Source: Algibacter sp. L1A34
GTDB taxonomy: Bacteria; Bacteroidota; Bacteroidia; Flavobacteriales; Flavobacteriaceae
Reading direction: 5' to 3'
DNA length: 64,000 nucleotides
Assembly: GCF_009796805.1 (NCBI RefSeq)
Contig: NZ_CP047029.1
Span: 3,362,001 to 3,426,000 of the forward strand
A program made the position numbers and the translations under genes. Under the pieces are notes generated by a model, which was given only the letters and a program-made list of their open reading frames with translations, was not told where the DNA came from and did not search any database. Below, piece by piece: positions 33,654-57,346 of the stretch; position 1 is the stretch's first letter; every line of letters starts with the position of its first letter.

Positions 33654-33998
33654 CGGCTAGTAGATCGCCTTATCGCTGTCTTAAATTTATTTAGGATGGA
33701 GGAAAGTCCGGACACCATAGTTCAATATAGTGGCTAACGGCCACCAGCCGAGAGGTTAGGACCAGTGCAACAGAAAGAATGTACAGGTAATGCTGTAGTG
33801 AAACCAGGTAAACTCTATGTGGTGCAATGTTATGTAAACCAGTGCTTGAGGGTTGAACGCCCGATGCTGGAGGGTAAGCAGCTAAAGTGTTTTGGTAACA
33901 AAATGCGTAGATAAATGATAAGGGCTTTTTTTGCTTGTTTTGGGTTTTCTTGAAACGGGTTTGAAGGGTACAGAATCCGGCTTATAGATTTACTTACT
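33654..33998 (+). ncRNA. rnpB: RNase P RNA
   Basis: The hallmark sequence GAGGAAAGTCCGGACACC occurs at ~33699-33716, and the later P4/P10 marks ACAGAAAGAATGTACAGG, GTGAAACCAGGTAAACTCT and the 3' block CAGAATCCGGCTTATAG follow in order. The ends were set with helix P1: AGTAGATC (33659-33666) pairs along its full length, allowing one G-U, with GATTTACT (33987-33994). Type A RNase P RNA; it cleaves tRNA 5' leaders together with RnpA. A terminator follows. Confidence 0.93.
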
Positions 33999-34005
33999 TA
34001 TAAAA

Positions 34006-50631: not shown

Positions 50632-51924
50632 TTACTTAAGTAAGAAGCTTTTCAAATCGTTATAAGTTGAAATTTTTACTGCTACTTTTTCTCCACCCAT
50701 AACAGCTTGTATTTGCTCAGGCAAAGGTTGTTTTTCTTTAATAACTTCTTCCACCACATCTAGAAATTTAGTTGGATGAGCCGTTTCTAAAAACACACAA
50801 TGCGCATTAGGATTTTCTTTTAAATAAGCTTTAGAACCTAAATATCCAACAGCACCATGTGGATCTGCGACATACTTACAATCGTTAAAGATTTCTAGCA
50901 TCGCTTCACGTGTTTCTTTATCAGAAAAACTGTAAGATGATAAGTTTTCTTTTAAGCCTTCAAAGTTGTTTTTATAAATTTCTTGAATTCTTATAAAGTT
51001 ACTAGGCGCTCCAACATCCATAGCATTACTAATAGTTTGCACAGATGGTTTTGGCTCGTATTTTTTAGAATCTAAATAACGTGTTACCACATTATTTTCG
51101 TTATTAGAAGCTATGAAATGCTTAATAGGTAAACCTAATTGCTGAGCCATCATTCCAGCACAAACGTTTCCAAAATTTCCACTTGGAACGGAAAACACAA
51201 TGTTTTCATGTTTGTTATGAAGTTGTTTATAAGCAAAGATGAAGTAAAATAACTGTGGCAACCAACGAGCTACATTAATAGAATTAGCAGATGTTAATTG
51301 CATTTTACTCGTTAGTGTTTCATCTAAAAAAGCAGTTTTTACCATGGCTTGGCAATCATCAAAAGTACCGTTTACTTCTAGTGCTTTTATGTTATGTCCA
51401 AGTGTAGTAAGTTGCATTTCTTGAATGTCACTCACTTTACCACTAGGATAAAGAATAACTACATTTACACCCTTAACACCTAAAAAACCATTAGCAACAG
51501 CTCCTCCGGTATCTCCAGAAGTTGCTACTAATACAGTTACTTCATTTGTGTTGTTTTGGTTAAAATAGCCTAAACAACGCGCCATAAAGCGTGCACCAAC
51601 ATCTTTAAATGCCATAGTTGGTCCATGAAACAATTCCAAGGTAGAAATATGCTCATTAATTTGCACTACAGGAAAATCGAAAGACAAAGTTTCTTCAACG
51701 ATCGTTTTTAAAACAGCTTCTGGAATTTCTGGTGAAACAAATTGTTTTATAGCTTCAAAAGCAATTTCGGTATGCGATAAACTATCAATATTATCGAAAA
51801 ACGATTTTGGTAAAGGTGTAATGCTTTCTGGAAAGTATAAACCTTTATCTGGTGCCAATCCTTTTATAACAGCATCTTTAAAAGAGGTGTTTGGTGCTTG
51901 TTTGTTTAATGAGTAGTAGTTCAT
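50632..51924 (-). CDS. thrC: Threonine synthase
   Basis: A 430-residue PLP enzyme: MNYYSLNKQAPNTSFKDAVIKGLAPDKGLYFPE at the start, TMAFKDVGARF with the PLP-Lys, ATSGDTGGAVANGFLG and VSFVPSGNFGNVCAGMMA-type loop (SVPSGNFGN here). It converts phosphohomoserine to threonine, the last step. Last gene of thrA-thrB-thrC, 100 bp after thrB. Operon expression would be controlled by the thr leader upstream of thrA. Confidence 0.95.
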   Translation of the reverse strand: MNYYSLNKQAPNTSFKDAVIKGLAPDKGLYFPESITPLPKSFFDNIDSLSHTEIAFEAIKQFVSPEIPEAVLKTIVEETLSFDFPVVQINEHISTLELFHGPTMAFKDVGARFMARCLGYFNQNNTNEVTVLVATSGDTGGAVANGFLGVKGVNVVILYPSGKVSDIQEMQLTTLGHNIKALEVNGTFDDCQAMVKTAFLDETLTSKMQLTSANSINVARWLPQLFYFIFAYKQLHNKHENIVFSVPSGNFGNVCAGMMAQQLGLPIKHFIASNNENNVVTRYLDSKKYEPKPSVQTISNAMDVGAPSNFIRIQEIYKNNFEGLKENLSSYSFSDKETREAMLEIFNDCKYVADPHGAVGYLGSKAYLKENPNAHCVFLETAHPTKFLDVVEEVIKEKQPLPEQIQAVMGGEKVAVKISTYNDLKSFLLK

Positions 51925-52024: not shown

Positions 52025-52948
52025 CTAAACTATTTTAACGCCTTCTGTATTAATTTTAGAAACATGAATATCAAATTCAATTCCTGTTTCTGCATATACT
52101 TTATTAATGGCTTCTTTTACTTTGTTAGCCGTTTCTACCCCTTTACTTAATGAGAAAATTGAAGGTCCAGAACCCGAAATACCACAACCTAAAGATCCCG
52201 CTTCTAATGATGCTTTTTTTACTTCATTGTAATGTGGGATTAATTTACTTCTATGGGGTTCTACAATTACATCTTGCAGTGAATTTTGAATTAAATCGTA
52301 ATCACTAGTATGCAATGCGTGAACCAAACTACCCACATTAGCCCATTGTGTAATGGCATCTGCAAGTGCAACTTCTTTTGGAAGTACAGCACGAGATTCA
52401 GATGTTTTTATTTCTATCTGTGGATGAATAATAGTAGCGTATAAATCTGTTGGCGATGGGATTTCTAAAATACGAACGGGATTTATACTTTTAACTAAAG
52501 TAAATCCACCAAAAAGAGCAGGAGCTAGGTTATCTGCATGTTCACATTTGCTAGCAATGGCTTCACCTTTTATGGCGAATTCAGTCAGTTGTGTTTTATT
52601 AAACGGACGCCCTAAAAGTTCATTCATTCCAAAAACACTACCAACGGCGCTTGCTGCACTACTTCCAATACCACTGCCTGGTTTTATATTTTTATAGATT
52701 TCAATTTCAAAACCAAAATCTACATCAATAGCATTATACATCGCTAATGCCGAAACACCTGCCACATTTAATTCAGATTCATATGGCAAATCGAAACCTA
52801 TAATTTTGGTAATATAAATTCCTTTTTTATCGGTTTTTCTAATCACCATATCGTCGCCAACACTATCTAAGCAAAACCCTAAAACGTCGAATCCGCACGA
52901 TACATTGGCAACGGTTGCCGGTGAAAAAATTTTTATTTCGTTCATCAA
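52025..52948 (-). CDS. thrB: Homoserine kinase
   Basis: A 307-residue GHMP kinase. Start IKIFSPATVANVSCGFDVLG, ATP-loop PGSGIGSSAASAVG, and the C-terminal GCGISGSGPSIFSL. It phosphorylates homoserine with ATP. Middle gene of the threonine operon, 56 bp after thrA. Confidence 0.95.
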   Translation of the reverse strand: MMNEIKIFSPATVANVSCGFDVLGFCLDSVGDDMVIRKTDKKGIYITKIIGFDLPYESELNVAGVSALAMYNAIDVDFGFEIEIYKNIKPGSGIGSSAASAVGSVFGMNELLGRPFNKTQLTEFAIKGEAIASKCEHADNLAPALFGGFTLVKSINPVRILEIPSPTDLYATIIHPQIEIKTSESRAVLPKEVALADAITQWANVGSLVHALHTSDYDLIQNSLQDVIVEPHRSKLIPHYNEVKKASLEAGSLGCGISGSGPSIFSLSKGVETANKVKEAINKVYAETGIEFDIHVSKINTEGVKIV

Positions 52949-53004: not shown

Positions 53005-55449
53005 TTAATCATTTCCTATTCTAATAATATCGGCAAATAAACCAGATGCTGTAACATCGGCACCAGCTCCGGCACCTTTAATTATCATAGGTTGTTTTGG
53101 GTAGCGTTGTGTGTAAAACATCACAATATTGTCGCTGCCTTCTAAATTATAAAAAGGGTGCCCTTCTGGAATTTCTTGTAAGCCTACACTGGCTTTTCCA
53201 TCATTAAACTGCGCTACATATTTTAACTGACAGTTGTTCGCTTTCGCGGAAGCATATAAACTTTGGTAATGCGCTTCGTCTTCAACTAAAGTTTGATAGA
53301 AATCATCAACAGTATCACTTTTTAATCCTGCTTCCGATAGGAAAGGTGCGTTTTTAATATCTTCTAAATTCATTTCAACACCACTCTCTCGGGCAAGAAT
53401 TAAAATTTTTCTAGCAACATCTACGCCACTTAAGTCTATTCTTGGATCTGGCTCAGTATATCCTTCAGCTCCAGCTTGTTTTACAACATCATAAAATTTT
53501 GTTTTATCTGTAAAATTATTAAAAACAAAGTTTAAACTTCCCGATAAAACGGCTTGAATAGAATTTACTTTATCTCCAGAAGCCATTAAATTATTAAGTG
53601 TATCTATTATAGGTAAACCTGCACCAACATTGGTTTCAAATAAATACGGTGCATTATATTTTAAAGATAATTCTTTTAATAATTTATAGTTTTTAAAATC
53701 ACTAGAACAGGCAATTTTATTGCACGCTACTACACCTATACTTTGGCGTAAGTACTTAGCATATAAGTCTGCAACATCTGCATTAGCCGTAACGTCTACA
53801 AAAATACTATTCCGTAAATTTAATGCTTTTGTGTTTTCAAAGAAACCTTGTAAAGTTGCTTTTTCACCATCTTCTAATTGGTCTTTCCAGTTTTTTAAAT
53901 CGATACCATCTTCATTAAAAATCATTTTTCTAGAATTAGATAATCCAGCAACACGAAGATTAATTTTAAGGTTATCTTTTAAATATTTTTTTTGTTGTTT
54001 TATTTGCTCAACTAAGCGCTCACCAACATTTCCAACGCCAGTAATAAATACATTTAGCTGTTTTGTTTTAGATTCAAAAAACTGTTCGTGTAATGTATTC
54101 AAGGCTTTTTTAACATCACTTTCTGCAATTACAGCAGAGATATTTTTTTCCGAAGCTCCTTGAGCAATAGCACGAATGTTAATATTATTCTTTCCTAAAG
54201 TACTAAACATTTTTCCGCTAATACCTTGGTGGTTTTTCATGTTATCACCAACAAGAGCAATAATAGAAAGTCCAGTTTCAACTATAATCGGATCAATTTT
54301 TTGTAAAGCAATTTCATTCTCAAAAGCAGTATCAATAGCTATTTGAGCAACTTCGGCTTCCTTGTCATCAATACCTAAACAGATAGAATGCTCAGAAGAT
54401 GCTTGAGTAATCATGATGATATTAATTTTTTCCTGTGAAAGCGTTTCAAACAAACGTCTAGAAAAACCTGGGATACCAACCATTCCACTACCTTGTAAAG
54501 TTAATAAAGCAATATTACTAATATTGCTAATTCCTTTAACAGGAGTCATTTCTTGAGTATTCTCATTAGAAATTACAGTACCTACATCATTAGGTGCCAT
54601 AGTATTTTTTATATGAATAGGAATTCCTAAACTCAAAACCGGTTGTACCGTTGGTGGGTATAATACTTTGGCTCCAAAATGCGATAATTCCATCGCCTCT
54701 TGATAGGATATTTTAGAAATAGGGTAGGCTTGTTTTACCATTCTTGGGTTGGTAGTATACATGCCACTAACATCTGTCCAAATTTCTAATTGATCTACTT
54801 TTAATGCTGCAGCAACAATAGCAGCTGTAAAATCTGATCCTCCACGACCAAGTGTAGTTTGTTCTCCTAGTTTAGATTTTGAAACAAAACCAGGTAAAAT
54901 TGTAATATTTTGAGATGCCGATTTAAAGTAGTCTTGAATATTAGCATTGGTTACTTTAAAATCAACTTCTGCTTTTGTGAAGTTAGAGTTAGTAACAACA
55001 AGCTCTTGAGAATTTTTTCTATCCGCCGATAACCCACGATTTTTCATCGTTTCAGCAATAATAAAAGAAGATAGTTTTTCACCAAAACTTACTAATTTAT
55101 CCGATGTTTTTGGAGATAATTCATTTATTAAGTAAATACCGCTAAGTAAATCTTCTAATTCTTGAAATTCATTATCAACCACTTGCGTAATTTTTTCACC
55201 ATTGCCTAAATTCAATTCATTTATAATATTGAAATGAATATCCTTTATCAAATTTAGCGTGTCTTTATAGCGAATATCTTTGTTTTGAGCTTGTTTACCA
55301 GTTAATAGTAATTTATCTGTAATACCACCAACAGCAGAAACTACACAAACTACAGCATCTGTTTTGCCATAATTTTCTAAAATATCGATAACTTTATTTA
55401 TGTTTTTTGAAGAACCTACAGAAGTTCCTCCAAATTTTAAAACTTTCAT
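53005..55449 (-). CDS. thrA: Bifunctional aspartate kinase / homoserine dehydrogenase
   Basis: An 814-residue fusion. N-terminal aspartokinase: KFGGTSVGSSKNI (residues 4-16), RGGSDFTAAIVA, followed by two ACT domains (~310-460). The C-terminal homoserine dehydrogenase begins ~465 with FITGVGNVGERL (NAD-binding loop), CNKIACSSDF, and ends GAGAGADVTASGLFADII. It catalyses the first and third steps of threonine/isoleucine synthesis, and feedback inhibition by threonine through the ACT domains is usual. Its start is 84 bp after a Thr/Ile-rich leader peptide frame on the same strand. It contains copy 4 of the 15-bp dispersed word near the 3' end. Confidence 0.95.
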   Translation of the reverse strand: MKVLKFGGTSVGSSKNINKVIDILENYGKTDAVVCVVSAVGGITDKLLLTGKQAQNKDIRYKDTLNLIKDIHFNIINELNLGNGEKITQVVDNEFQELEDLLSGIYLINELSPKTSDKLVSFGEKLSSFIIAETMKNRGLSADRKNSQELVVTNSNFTKAEVDFKVTNANIQDYFKSASQNITILPGFVSKSKLGEQTTLGRGGSDFTAAIVAAALKVDQLEIWTDVSGMYTTNPRMVKQAYPISKISYQEAMELSHFGAKVLYPPTVQPVLSLGIPIHIKNTMAPNDVGTVISNENTQEMTPVKGISNISNIALLTLQGSGMVGIPGFSRRLFETLSQEKINIIMITQASSEHSICLGIDDKEAEVAQIAIDTAFENEIALQKIDPIIVETGLSIIALVGDNMKNHQGISGKMFSTLGKNNINIRAIAQGASEKNISAVIAESDVKKALNTLHEQFFESKTKQLNVFITGVGNVGERLVEQIKQQKKYLKDNLKINLRVAGLSNSRKMIFNEDGIDLKNWKDQLEDGEKATLQGFFENTKALNLRNSIFVDVTANADVADLYAKYLRQSIGVVACNKIACSSDFKNYKLLKELSLKYNAPYLFETNVGAGLPIIDTLNNLMASGDKVNSIQAVLSGSLNFVFNNFTDKTKFYDVVKQAGAEGYTEPDPRIDLSGVDVARKILILARESGVEMNLEDIKNAPFLSEAGLKSDTVDDFYQTLVEDEAHYQSLYASAKANNCQLKYVAQFNDGKASVGLQEIPEGHPFYNLEGSDNIVMFYTQRYPKQPMIIKGAGAGADVTASGLFADIIRIGND
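53237..53251 (-). repeat. Dispersed 15-bp word, copy 4 (inside thrA)
   Basis: TTCGCTTTCGCGGAA on the plus strand; on the coding strand TTCCGCGAAAGCGAA, read Ser-Ala-Lys-Ala-Asn in YASAKANNCQ. Same reading frame and same peptide as the copy in dnaX. Confidence 0.75.
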
Positions 55450-55470: not shown

Positions 55471-55551
55471 AAAAAAAAATATTGTGATTATGCGATTTTT
55501 AAAATCGCAAATATTGTCCGAAGAATATATAATTAGTAACCCCAAAGGGTT
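55471..55551 (-). promoter_or_regulatory. Candidate threonine attenuator (stems and T-run) before thrA
   Basis: Downstream of the leader peptide on the minus strand: AACCC/GGGTT stem over the end of the leader (55538-55551), an AATAT/ATATT stem around CTTCGG (~55512-55530), a GCGATTTT/AAAATCGC stem (55492-55508), then a T9 run (minus strand, 55471-55479). The last stem lies 12 bases from the T-run, so its terminator quality is moderate. Mutually exclusive pairing is likely, as expected for ribosome-stalling attenuation, but I have not folded it. Confidence 0.5.
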
Positions 55552-55640
55552 GTAATGTTTGTAGTTGTAGCCAAAATAATAGCCGTTCCTTTTGTAGAAA
55601 AAGAAATAGTAGCGTTTGTATTTTGGTTGAAATGATTCAT
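55533..55640 (-). CDS. Thr/Ile-rich leader peptide of the thrABC operon
   Basis: A 35-residue frame (36 codons with stop) on the minus strand just before thrA, too short to be seen by usual gene finders. Nine of 35 residues are Thr and four are Ile. The second half reads AIILATTTNITTLWGY, with five Thr and an Ile in residues 25-31 (TTTNITT). Thr and Ile are the products of the pathway, so low charged tRNA would stall the ribosome here. A -7 element TACTTTTG lies upstream (55668 to 55661), leaving a 16-base leader. Bacteroidetes have few described amino-acid attenuators, so this is a notable find. Confidence 0.7.
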   Translation of the reverse strand: MNHFNQNTNATISFSTKGTAIILATTTNITTLWGY

Positions 55641-55660
55641 TATTGTTATATAATACACTT

Positions 55661-55668
55661 CAAAAGTA
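55661..55668 (-). promoter_or_regulatory. -7 element of the threonine operon promoter
   Basis: On the minus strand TACTTTTG (55668 to 55661) matches TAnnTTTG exactly. Predicted start ~55656, 16 bases before the leader peptide ATG. No clear -33 TTTG (TTTT at the right distance). Confidence 0.5.
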
Positions 55669-55792: not shown

Positions 55793-57346
55793 ATGAAAAT
55801 ATTTTCAAAAGAACAAATTTACGAAGGCGATAAAATTACTGCGGAAAAACAAGAAATCTCGTCAACAGATTTAATGGAACGAGCGGGAAGTCAGATTTTT
55901 AATTGGATCGATTTACGCATGCAAGGTGCACAAGTACCAATACATGTTTTTTGCGGTATAGGAAACAATGGTGGCGATGGATTAGTATTGGCAAGACATT
56001 TGATACTTGCTGGTTATAATGTAAATACCTTTGTAGTGAATTGTAGTGATAAACGATCTAAAGATTTTTTAATTAATTACGATCGCGTTAAAAATGTTAC
56101 CAAAAATTGGCCTACACTCTTAAGTTGCACTGAAGATTTTCCTGAAATAAAGGCAGAAGACATTATTGTTGATTGTGTTTTTGGAATAGGATTAAACAGG
56201 CCTGTTGATGAATGGGTTAAGAATTTATTTATTCACTTTAGAGCTTCGAAAGCATTTACATTATCTGTCGATATTCCTTCTGGATTATACACAGATAAAG
56301 CCATCACAGATGAAGATGCTGTTGTTTATGCAGGTTATACCCTTAGTTTTGCTTCGCCTAAATTGGTGTTCTTTTTACCGGAAACAGCTAAGTTTACAGT
56401 ACAATGGGAAGTTTTAGATATTGGTTTAGATCCAGAGTTTTTATCTGCAACACAAACCGATGTTCAGTTAATTGGTAAAAATGAAATATTACCTAATTAC
56501 ATTCCGCGAGATAAATATTCACATAAAGGTCAATTTGGACATGCATTAATTATTGGTGGAAGTTACGGCAAAATAGGAGCGGTAACTTTAGCGAGTCGTT
56601 CAGCACTTTCAGCAGGGTCAGGATTAGTTACTGCTTATATTCCTAAATGTGGATATACCATTTTGCAGACCGCATTGCCAGAAGCGATGGTTTTAACCGA
56701 TGTTGATGATGAAAACATAACCAACATTAACTTTACCATTAAACCTACAGTTATTGGTATAGGAATTGGTATTGGTACCGATTCTAAGACGAAAAAAGCA
56801 TTTAAAGTCTTTTTGAAAGCAAATAAAACGCCTTTAGTTGTAGATGCCGATGCGATTAATATTTTGGCTAAAAGGAAAAGTTTACTAAAATTATTACCTC
56901 CAGAAAGTATTTTAACGCCACATCCAAAAGAGTTAAAACGATTAATTGGACCATGGGAAAATGATTTTGATAAGTTAGAAAAGGTAAAAGCATTTTCTAA
57001 TTTATACAAGGTAATTGTTGTAATAAAAGGAGCAAATACTATAACGGTATTCGATGATACACTGTATGTGAATACTACAGGGAACCCTGGATTATCTACC
57101 GCAGGAAGTGGCGATGTTTTAACGGGTATTATTACTGGATTAATCGCTCAAAGTTACCATCCTGTAGTTGCATCAATTTTTGGTGTTTATTTACATGGAA
57201 AATCTGCCGATATTGCTGTTGAAAACTATGGCTATCAGAGTTTAATTGCTAGCCACGTTATAGATTATTTAGGCGAAGCGTTTATAGATCTATTTACGCA
57301 GCCTGAGCAACCTGAACAAGTTGAAGCAGAGCAACCAAAACCTTAA
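55793..57346 (+). CDS. nnrD: Bifunctional NAD(P)HX epimerase / ADP-dependent NAD(P)HX dehydratase
   Basis: A 517-residue fusion. Residues ~1-215 are the YjeF_N epimerase domain (MERAGSQIFNWI, GIGNNGGDGLVLARHL, VDCVFGIGLNRPV). Residues ~230-500 are the ribokinase-like dehydratase (GHALIIGGSYGKIGAVTLAS, DADAINILA, TPHPKELKRLIG, STAGSGDVLTGIITGLIAQ). It repairs hydrated NAD(P)H by epimerising and dehydrating it. The C-terminus has a short EQPEQVEAEQPKP tail. Stand-alone gene, divergent from thrA, with its own terminator downstream. Confidence 0.95.
   Translation: MKIFSKEQIYEGDKITAEKQEISSTDLMERAGSQIFNWIDLRMQGAQVPIHVFCGIGNNGGDGLVLARHLILAGYNVNTFVVNCSDKRSKDFLINYDRVKNVTKNWPTLLSCTEDFPEIKAEDIIVDCVFGIGLNRPVDEWVKNLFIHFRASKAFTLSVDIPSGLYTDKAITDEDAVVYAGYTLSFASPKLVFFLPETAKFTVQWEVLDIGLDPEFLSATQTDVQLIGKNEILPNYIPRDKYSHKGQFGHALIIGGSYGKIGAVTLASRSALSAGSGLVTAYIPKCGYTILQTALPEAMVLTDVDDENITNINFTIKPTVIGIGIGIGTDSKTKKAFKVFLKANKTPLVVDADAINILAKRKSLLKLLPPESILTPHPKELKRLIGPWENDFDKLEKVKAFSNLYKVIVVIKGANTITVFDDTLYVNTTGNPGLSTAGSGDVLTGIITGLIAQSYHPVVASIFGVYLHGKSADIAVENYGYQSLIASHVIDYLGEAFIDLFTQPEQPEQVEAEQPKP

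Follow-up and report, generated by a model that had tools for sequence, protein, structure and literature searches.

A Thr/Ile-rich leader upstream of thrABC in Algibacter sp. L1A34 as a probable, widespread variant of the leader-peptide attenuator

The thrABC locus

The window, a 64,000-nt stretch of DNA from the single-contig, 4.64 Mb genome of Algibacter sp. L1A34, carries the genes thrA, thrB and thrC on its minus strand, in that order. The bifunctional aspartate kinase/homoserine dehydrogenase I gene thrA (53005..55449) scores 1045 bits against model NF006959, whose cut-off is 726. The homoserine kinase gene thrB (52025..52948, the coordinates of the listed open reading frame) lies above the cut-offs of NF002288 and TIGR00191, and the threonine synthase gene thrC (50632..51924) exceeds that of TIGR00260. 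An NAD(P)H-hydrate repair gene, divergent from thrA, begins at 55793. The nearest named relatives of this ThrA come from Algibacter pacificus (95%), A. lectus (94%) and A. miyuki (93%).

Another aspartokinase/homoserine dehydrogenase copy, L002 (1486-4884, minus strand), lies in a frame of 1132 amino acids. Its front domain, named by eye, resembles homoserine O-acetyltransferase, with the ThrA-like part behind it; the four remaining genomes of the genus also have open frames of this length. Directly upstream of this second ThrA-like gene there is no Thr/Ile leader, the gene being fused to the upstream frame instead. The window also contains an RNase P RNA of bacterial class A (33657-34000, plus strand; RF00010, 193 bits).

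The leader frame and its control codons

The original prediction, made from the sequence of this region, placed a Thr/Ile-rich frame of 35 residues just upstream of thrABC. Translation of 55640-55533 on the minus strand confirms it: the 35 codons (55533..55640) encode MNHFNQNTNATISFSTKGTAIILATTTNITTLWGY, followed by a stop codon, with nine Thr, four Ile and the run TTTNITT near the C-terminal end. The stop lies 83 nt before the ATG of thrA, and thrB and thrC follow. The putative control codons, ACA ACT ACA AAC ATT ACA ACC (55548..55568, minus strand), encode TTTNITT. The matching codons were counted in 131 relatives that share a hairpin, P2, which starts in the last of them. In these relatives the last seven codons include a mean of 5.15 Thr or Ile codons, a count with a mild bias in that the script retained, where several P2 hairpins were possible, the one with the most such codons. 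The same count is 0.33 and 0.15 in the other two frames, and 2.2 once the 18 nt before ACC are shuffled. At least four Thr or Ile codons occur in 119/131 relatives; the remaining 12 have fewer, three of them only two. Among the first 113 loci read, for which CCC...GGG alone was required, 97 were positive, and in these the preceding base is A (97/97), the final control codon is ACC (97/97) and an in-frame ATG is present (96/97). Their stop codons fall 5 to 29 nt past the first C of P2, most commonly 14 nt (57/97) or 11 nt (22/97).

A coding test was run on the 39 of 44 near-group rows with exactly 35 codons. The leader frame is free of stops in 39/39, and the other two frames contain stops in 39/39 and 16/39. 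The pN/pS ratio is 0.83 in the leader frame, 0.85 in frame 1 and 0.48 in frame 2; being about equal to the first of these alternatives and above the second, the in-frame value led us to drop peptide conservation as an argument. The peptide drifts while the frame is kept, as a ratio of 0.83 in a frame open throughout indicates. Judged from these comparisons of sequence, the Thr/Ile-rich frame of 35 codons is genuine and selection acts on it, conserving codons and RNA and not the protein sequence. A drifting peptide with retained Thr/Ile codons fits a leader in which the codons matter, and speaks against a conserved arrest peptide. The arrangement shares two traits with ribosome-mediated amino-acid attenuators: a short frame full of codons for the product of the biosynthetic operon that follows, and conservation through codons instead of peptide sequence.

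A -7 promoter box, TACTTTTG (55661..55668, minus strand), precedes the frame and is of the TAnnTTTG type, the flavobacterial sigma-A consensus according to PMC9723704. This motif is conserved 60-190 nt upstream of P2 in 118/131 relatives, and a fixed 90-nt window contains it in 90%, as compared with 7% after shuffling. The leader ATG lies 8-45 nt past the box in 106/131 relatives (median 19). Judged from the box, transcription in the window would probably start about 15 nt upstream of the leader.

RNA elements between the leader and thrA

The 213-nt leader folds more stably than its shuffles (z -3.24), and four conserved elements can be distinguished, all on the minus strand. Hairpin P1b, TTTCTTTT : AAAAGGAA (55586..55606), lies inside the open reading frame and has two-sided changes in 7/8 pairs among 41 sequences. 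Hairpin P2, AACCC-TTTG-GGGTT (55538..55551), begins within the last Thr codon and ends 2 nt short of the stop codon; it is almost fixed, with 4/6 pairs invariant and two-sided changes in 1/6 (41 sequences). Element E, TTATATATTCTTC (55520..55532), is an unpaired conserved stretch between P2 and P3, defined on alignment A2 of 126 sequences, and A[TC]AT stands at the expected place in 109/131 relatives. Hairpin P3, TGCGATTT-TAA-AAATCGCA (55491..55509), is A/T-rich, has no adjoining U tract, and has two-sided changes in 7/9 pairs (41 sequences). In alignment A3, for which L014, L023 and L052 were omitted from the 44 near-group rows with P2 to leave 41, P1b, P2 and P3, taken together in the control and not singly, beat all 500 shuffles on all five measures. 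Further out, a downstream hairpin of at least four pairs is found in 127/131 relatives, with a median start 40 nt past P2. This hairpin beats plain shuffles at the 5% level in 47% of the 131 relatives, which makes P3 certain for the near group but less so for more distant relatives.

The original prediction had also described alternative stems and a T9 run before thrA. The two stems, P2 at 55551-55538 and P3 at 55509-55491, share no bases and are predicted to form together, and two candidate antiterminators, discussed below, show no covariation; the description of the stems as alternatives is not supported. The T9 run exists (55471..55479, minus strand), but it starts 11 nt past P3, and T's are not enriched directly after the hairpin in relatives, where the next 8 nt contain a mean of 3.1, no more than expected from base composition, and at least five in 25/127. 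An intrinsic terminator with an adjoining U tract is not seen before thrA in the window.

Occurrence in relatives

Matches to ThrA were found in 5/5 genomes of the genus, 203/249 of the family (E <= 1e-150) and 40/198 of the class. From the family, 154 regions upstream of thrA were read (33 near loci, 80 and 39 further stretches, and 2 from the class draw). These cover part of the matching genomes and were drawn mainly from those with the highest identity, which weights the counts toward close relatives. Hairpin P2, as CCC...GGG preceded by the A of an ACC codon, is present in 131/154. The leader is found at 33/33 near loci; L014 has an insert between leader and thrA, and L023 an early stop inside P2. 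Alignment across the Flavobacteriaceae had been suggested as a check, and it gave what the original prediction anticipated, namely a Thr-rich frame that persists as its bases change, along with conserved stems, and there was no loss of the frame of the kind that would have spoken against it. P2 is absent at 23/154 family loci. At six of these 23 (L098, L102, L103, L122, L189 and L190) no leader was seen in the upstream region; another coding frame appears to reach to about 20-30 nt before thrA there. In a set of named relatives, which partly overlaps the main family set, the core with at least three Thr or Ile codons among the last seven is found at 70/79 loci with enough flank.

A covariance model of the core, R1, was built from 126 of the 131 rows, leaving aside L052, L082 and L100 (two Thr or Ile codons each) as well as L155 and L159. 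In the Algibacter genome R1 finds one clear site, at 65 bits, with a runner-up at 23 bits (E 1.2). Within the family it matches (E <= 0.1) in 34/60 genomes, many of the matched loci having served to train it; all 34 are among the 45 genomes with a full ThrA match, as against 0/15 among those without. Of the 36 listed R1 matches, 28 are no more than 130 nt from the ThrA start, six are without shown ThrA coordinates, and two weak ones lie elsewhere. The idea that P2 and E form a general attenuator module is unsupported in this genome, given the single clear R1 site. Two further genomic matches of the short P2-E pattern are at control level and look unrelated.

Relatives with intrinsic terminators

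In three family members, L109, L110 and L168, the Thr/Ile leader lacks P2 and is accompanied by a strong hairpin leading into T's. When the transcript is cut before the 3' arm, the 5' arm of the terminator is paired upstream with a probability of 0.98 for a stalled ribosome and 0.02 for one at the stop in L110, and 0.96 and 0.07 in L168, a contrast that is partly an effect of length. It is matched by 0/30 shuffles in these two, and L109 shows no such switch. In shuffled controls of eight intrinsic-type leaders, L110 and L168 stand out, L151 (0.07) and L153 (0.10) are borderline, and the other four do not; the script chose the wrong hairpin for L130. For the full-length terminator, most intrinsic-type leaders give a predicted probability close to 1.0 whether the ribosome is stalled or at the stop; L110 and L168 are the exceptions.

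The class sample comprised 30 of the 40 matches, four of them from the family itself, leaving 26 non-family loci. By eye, 13/26 have Thr/Ile-rich leaders; L145 and L152-L154 have clear terminators, the strong hairpin of L151 is followed by a poorer U tract, and P2 is present in L131, L138 and L140. An intrinsic terminator with a U tract is thus found in L110, L168, L145 and L152-L154, and in L109 if T's of the stem are counted. Since Thr/Ile leaders precede intrinsic terminators in relatives, termination probably serves as the read-out of this operon elsewhere. Three loci from another family of the class, L141, L142 and L149, have at the leader end, by eye, a reversed hairpin, ACGGG...CCCGT, whose loop contains or adjoins the stop codon; a stop-codon hairpin thus recurs with other letters.

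On a ThrA tree of 51 rows, with type labels assigned by eye, the three intrinsic-type family members form one clade (100/100). This clade joins 11 P2-type rows at a starred fork (97/94), and 11 more P2-type rows lie outside. Nested in this way among P2-type rows, the intrinsic clade implies, in this sample, that the family had the P2 type first.

How the leader may be read out

Beyond the frame, codons, box, stems and conservation, which are observed, we infer ribosome stalling and, as its read-out, premature termination. A ribosome would translate the leader from the upstream-started transcript. When charged Thr-tRNA (or Ile-tRNA) is scarce it would halt in TTTNITT, just before P2; with ample supply it would pass P2, reach the stop and depart. 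Its position would set the number of polymerases that cross the 83 nt from the leader stop to thrA. In the favored version, a Rho-like factor would assist termination in the G-poor, C-over-G stretch past P2, a ribosome waiting on the AC-rich codons would keep Rho from loading, and P3 would act as a pausing or protecting hairpin. The stalled ribosome would sit 30-50 nt upstream of element E.

We put the probability that a Thr/Ile codon-sensing leader peptide controls thrABC at about 0.72. Against it weigh the 23 family loci that lack P2, the 12 P2-bearing relatives with fewer than four Thr or Ile codons, and the weak near-group excess of antiterminator-like pairing described below. Its parts differ in strength. 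That the leader senses Thr/Ile is highly probable on the comparative evidence, and ribosome stalling at these codons, which the original prediction had advanced as the means of control, is very likely. Premature termination is a probable read-out. That it would be Rho-like rather than intrinsic is a tentative choice, to which we give somewhat less than even odds.

This choice is guided by base composition, since a G-poor stretch with C over G past P2 hints at factor-dependent termination. In E. coli, Rho prefers RNA of this kind. The (C-G)/(C+G) skew over the 70 nt past P2 is +0.36 across the 131 relatives and positive in 125/131; it is +0.27 in the near group and +0.38 in the window. For comparison, 31 upstream regions of the window give +0.02 (per-gene sd 0.27), and the spacers of the eight intrinsic-type leaders, at 34 nt each and 272 nt in all, give -0.18. 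The stretch thus has the composition expected of a Rho-dependent leader, and the genome has a rho gene. As a sign of Rho the skew is indirect and suggestive; low G may alternatively keep the RNA unstructured.

The strongest rival is a classical attenuator of the E. coli thr or trp kind, in which stalling forms an antiterminator that breaks an intrinsic terminator made of P3 and the T9 run. Folding of the window leader offers no sign of this. P3 has a probability of 0.99 with the ribosome at several control codons or at the stop, and with the transcript cut before its 3' arm, the 5' arm is paired upstream at 0.35 when stalled and 0.39 at the stop, with no excess over shuffles (0.38-0.47). In the near group (43 members, L052 omitted, as were 29 of the rows outside the group, for want of a usable hairpin), a weak excess of antiterminator-like pairing does speak for the classical model: the 5' arm is paired at 0.51 when stalled at codon -5, compared with 0.36 in shuffles, and at 0.48 compared with 0.34 at codon -2, with 7/43 and 12/43 members individually unusual. 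From this excess, some relatives may have a partial switch. The folding test has low power, as the Bacteroid-trp leader of the same genome, which is expected to switch, comes out flat (0.49-0.51 stalled, 0.47 at the stop), and we have given the classical attenuator more weight because this control is missed. It further gains from the textbook switch in L110 and L168.

Two candidate antiterminators were considered and rejected. The first, ATTACAA of the control codons with the P3 5' arm, can pair in 83.5% of cells, a point in favor of a classical switch, and seems by eye to covary in L020 and L027; among 41 sequences, however, 40 to 108 of 500 shuffles score as high. The second, AATTATA around the stop with the same arm, shows zero two-sided changes. 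A long-range pairing of ACGGACATA, from the 5' codons of some leaders, with CGTCCGT in E was noticed by eye in several distant leaders and also set aside, E being kept elsewhere without ACGGACATA. It is the missing covariation, together with the A/T-rich P3 that has no adjoining U tract and is not followed by excess T's in relatives, that makes us doubt a classical switch, and these grounds are firmer than the folding test. Competing stems with an intrinsic terminator are thus not supported for the window, and we consider the classical attenuator unlikely here; the leader may work without a stop-signal switch of the E. coli style.

A second rival holds that the leader ribosome opens the start region of thrA, or couples to it, so that control would be translational. 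The leader does adjoin thrA, and in PMC12121999 the E. coli uORF toiL is proposed to act on translation first and on Rho termination second. Against this, the 83 nt from the stop to the thrA ATG are far for simple coupling, and no conserved stem is seen over the thrA start, which is unpaired at a mean of 0.53 in 131 relatives and at 0.76-0.93 for the AUG of the window; we regard translational control as improbable. Still less credible is a nascent peptide that arrests the ribosome by its own sequence in place of codon sensing. Its appeal lies in an LWGC/LWGY end that is seemingly constant in close relatives, a constancy that comes along with the RNA hairpin P2; other relatives read the same hairpin as LWG, PWG, PLG, RLG, PFGV or R-stop, and the near-group peptide drifts as noted (pN/pS 0.83). 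Short frames are abundant in A/T-rich DNA, yet a chance frame, or one kept for another reason, can practically be dismissed in view of the in-frame Thr/Ile enrichment in 131 relatives and stops in 0/39 near ones.

Returning to codon sensing with a Rho-like read-out, a bolder version extends it to most Flavobacteriaceae with this thrA and to some other Bacteroidia: a Thr/Ile-stalled ribosome beside a stop-codon hairpin would govern Rho termination in a conserved G-poor element, with neither intrinsic terminator nor stem switch, and one clade would have swapped in an intrinsic attenuator while keeping the Thr/Ile leader. We hold this version to be doubtful as it stands. If true, Rho-based codon-sensing attenuation would be how the Flavobacteriaceae ancestrally controlled a core biosynthetic operon. 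Codon-sensing leaders are in any case indicated for threonine synthesis across a large family of the phylum, in which translation, as the original prediction stated for context, largely starts without Shine-Dalgarno pairing. In the sample studied, the sensing part is conserved, and the read-out part seems to depart from the textbook here and has been exchanged at least once. The question this raises, whether a ribosome stalled at hungry codons can be read by something besides an intrinsic terminator switch, is testable in culturable marine bacteria such as Algibacter.

Comparison with known systems

In E. coli, the promoter of the thr operon is followed by the Thr/Ile-rich leader peptide thrL, then by stems and thrA, the leader lying just before thrABC. 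The window shares the Thr/Ile-rich leader directly ahead of thrABC but differs in having a hairpin at the stop codon, then element E, then an A/T-rich hairpin; competing stems find no support there, and no hairpin adjoins a U tract. The likeness to the gamma-proteobacterial layout, as originally drawn, therefore holds for the leader and not for competing stems and an intrinsic terminator, neither of which is supported in the window. At gathering scores over the window, Rfam gives no match to the thr leader region, Thr_leader (RF00506) included; at E up to 10 over the leader region there are just two unrelated chance matches, neither of them Thr_leader or Bacteroid-trp.

The logic of the read-out favored for the window, a stalled ribosome blocking Rho, is that of E. 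coli tnaC, where a ribosome stalled on the leader peptide prevents Rho from reaching the RNA. In tnaC the signal is excess Trp, acting through arrest at the stop codon, whereas on the window leader a ribosome would stall at codons under Thr/Ile shortage.

Searches of the open-licence literature found neither a thr leader in Bacteroidota nor the P2-E-P3 layout. Vitreschak 2004 reportedly names, in its abstract, Bacteroidetes/Chlorobi among the groups with candidate attenuators, and a claim that the thr leader is unpublished would for this reason be too strong. For Flavobacterium psychrophilum, PMC9723704 gives clues for attenuation by leader peptides before amino-acid operons; in its main text the words threonine and thrA do not occur, and its attenuation section has no P2-E-P3 layout. 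In Bacteroides thetaiotaomicron, short frames lie within long 5' UTRs (PMC7366714); the text does not mention threonine or thrA, and the example it names is another gene.

Bacteroid-trp (RF01692), an element named in a table of PMC2864571, is like the thrA leader in being a leader-peptide element, in the same phylum and present in this genome. It differs in its Trp codons and in a strong hairpin with a U tract. RF01692 has no match at the window leader, its two hits in the genome lying elsewhere, and the single W of the leader peptide falls within P2. One of the two hits, L124 (contig 2049086-2049210, minus strand, 58 bits), has the leader MNIFLNNTWWWSFRN and a strong intrinsic terminator, and the gene that follows looks by eye like trpE. 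The other, L125 (contig 3338213-3338312), scores 46 bits with a cut-off of 49, overlaps the start of an oxidoreductase-like gene and is probably a false match.

With Bacteroid-trp, the clues in PMC9723704 and a His-rich leader before hisG, leader-peptide attenuation in the phylum is not new. The original prediction is fair in stating that few such attenuators are described in Bacteroidetes, although the statement does not hold absolutely, given Bacteroid-trp and the F. psychrophilum clues. The His-rich leader, L227, lies upstream of contig position 3673492 and encodes MTFIQIHHHFHICFQAN; a hairpin and a T run, seen by eye, follow before hisG, and it is probably a conventional His attenuator of this genome.
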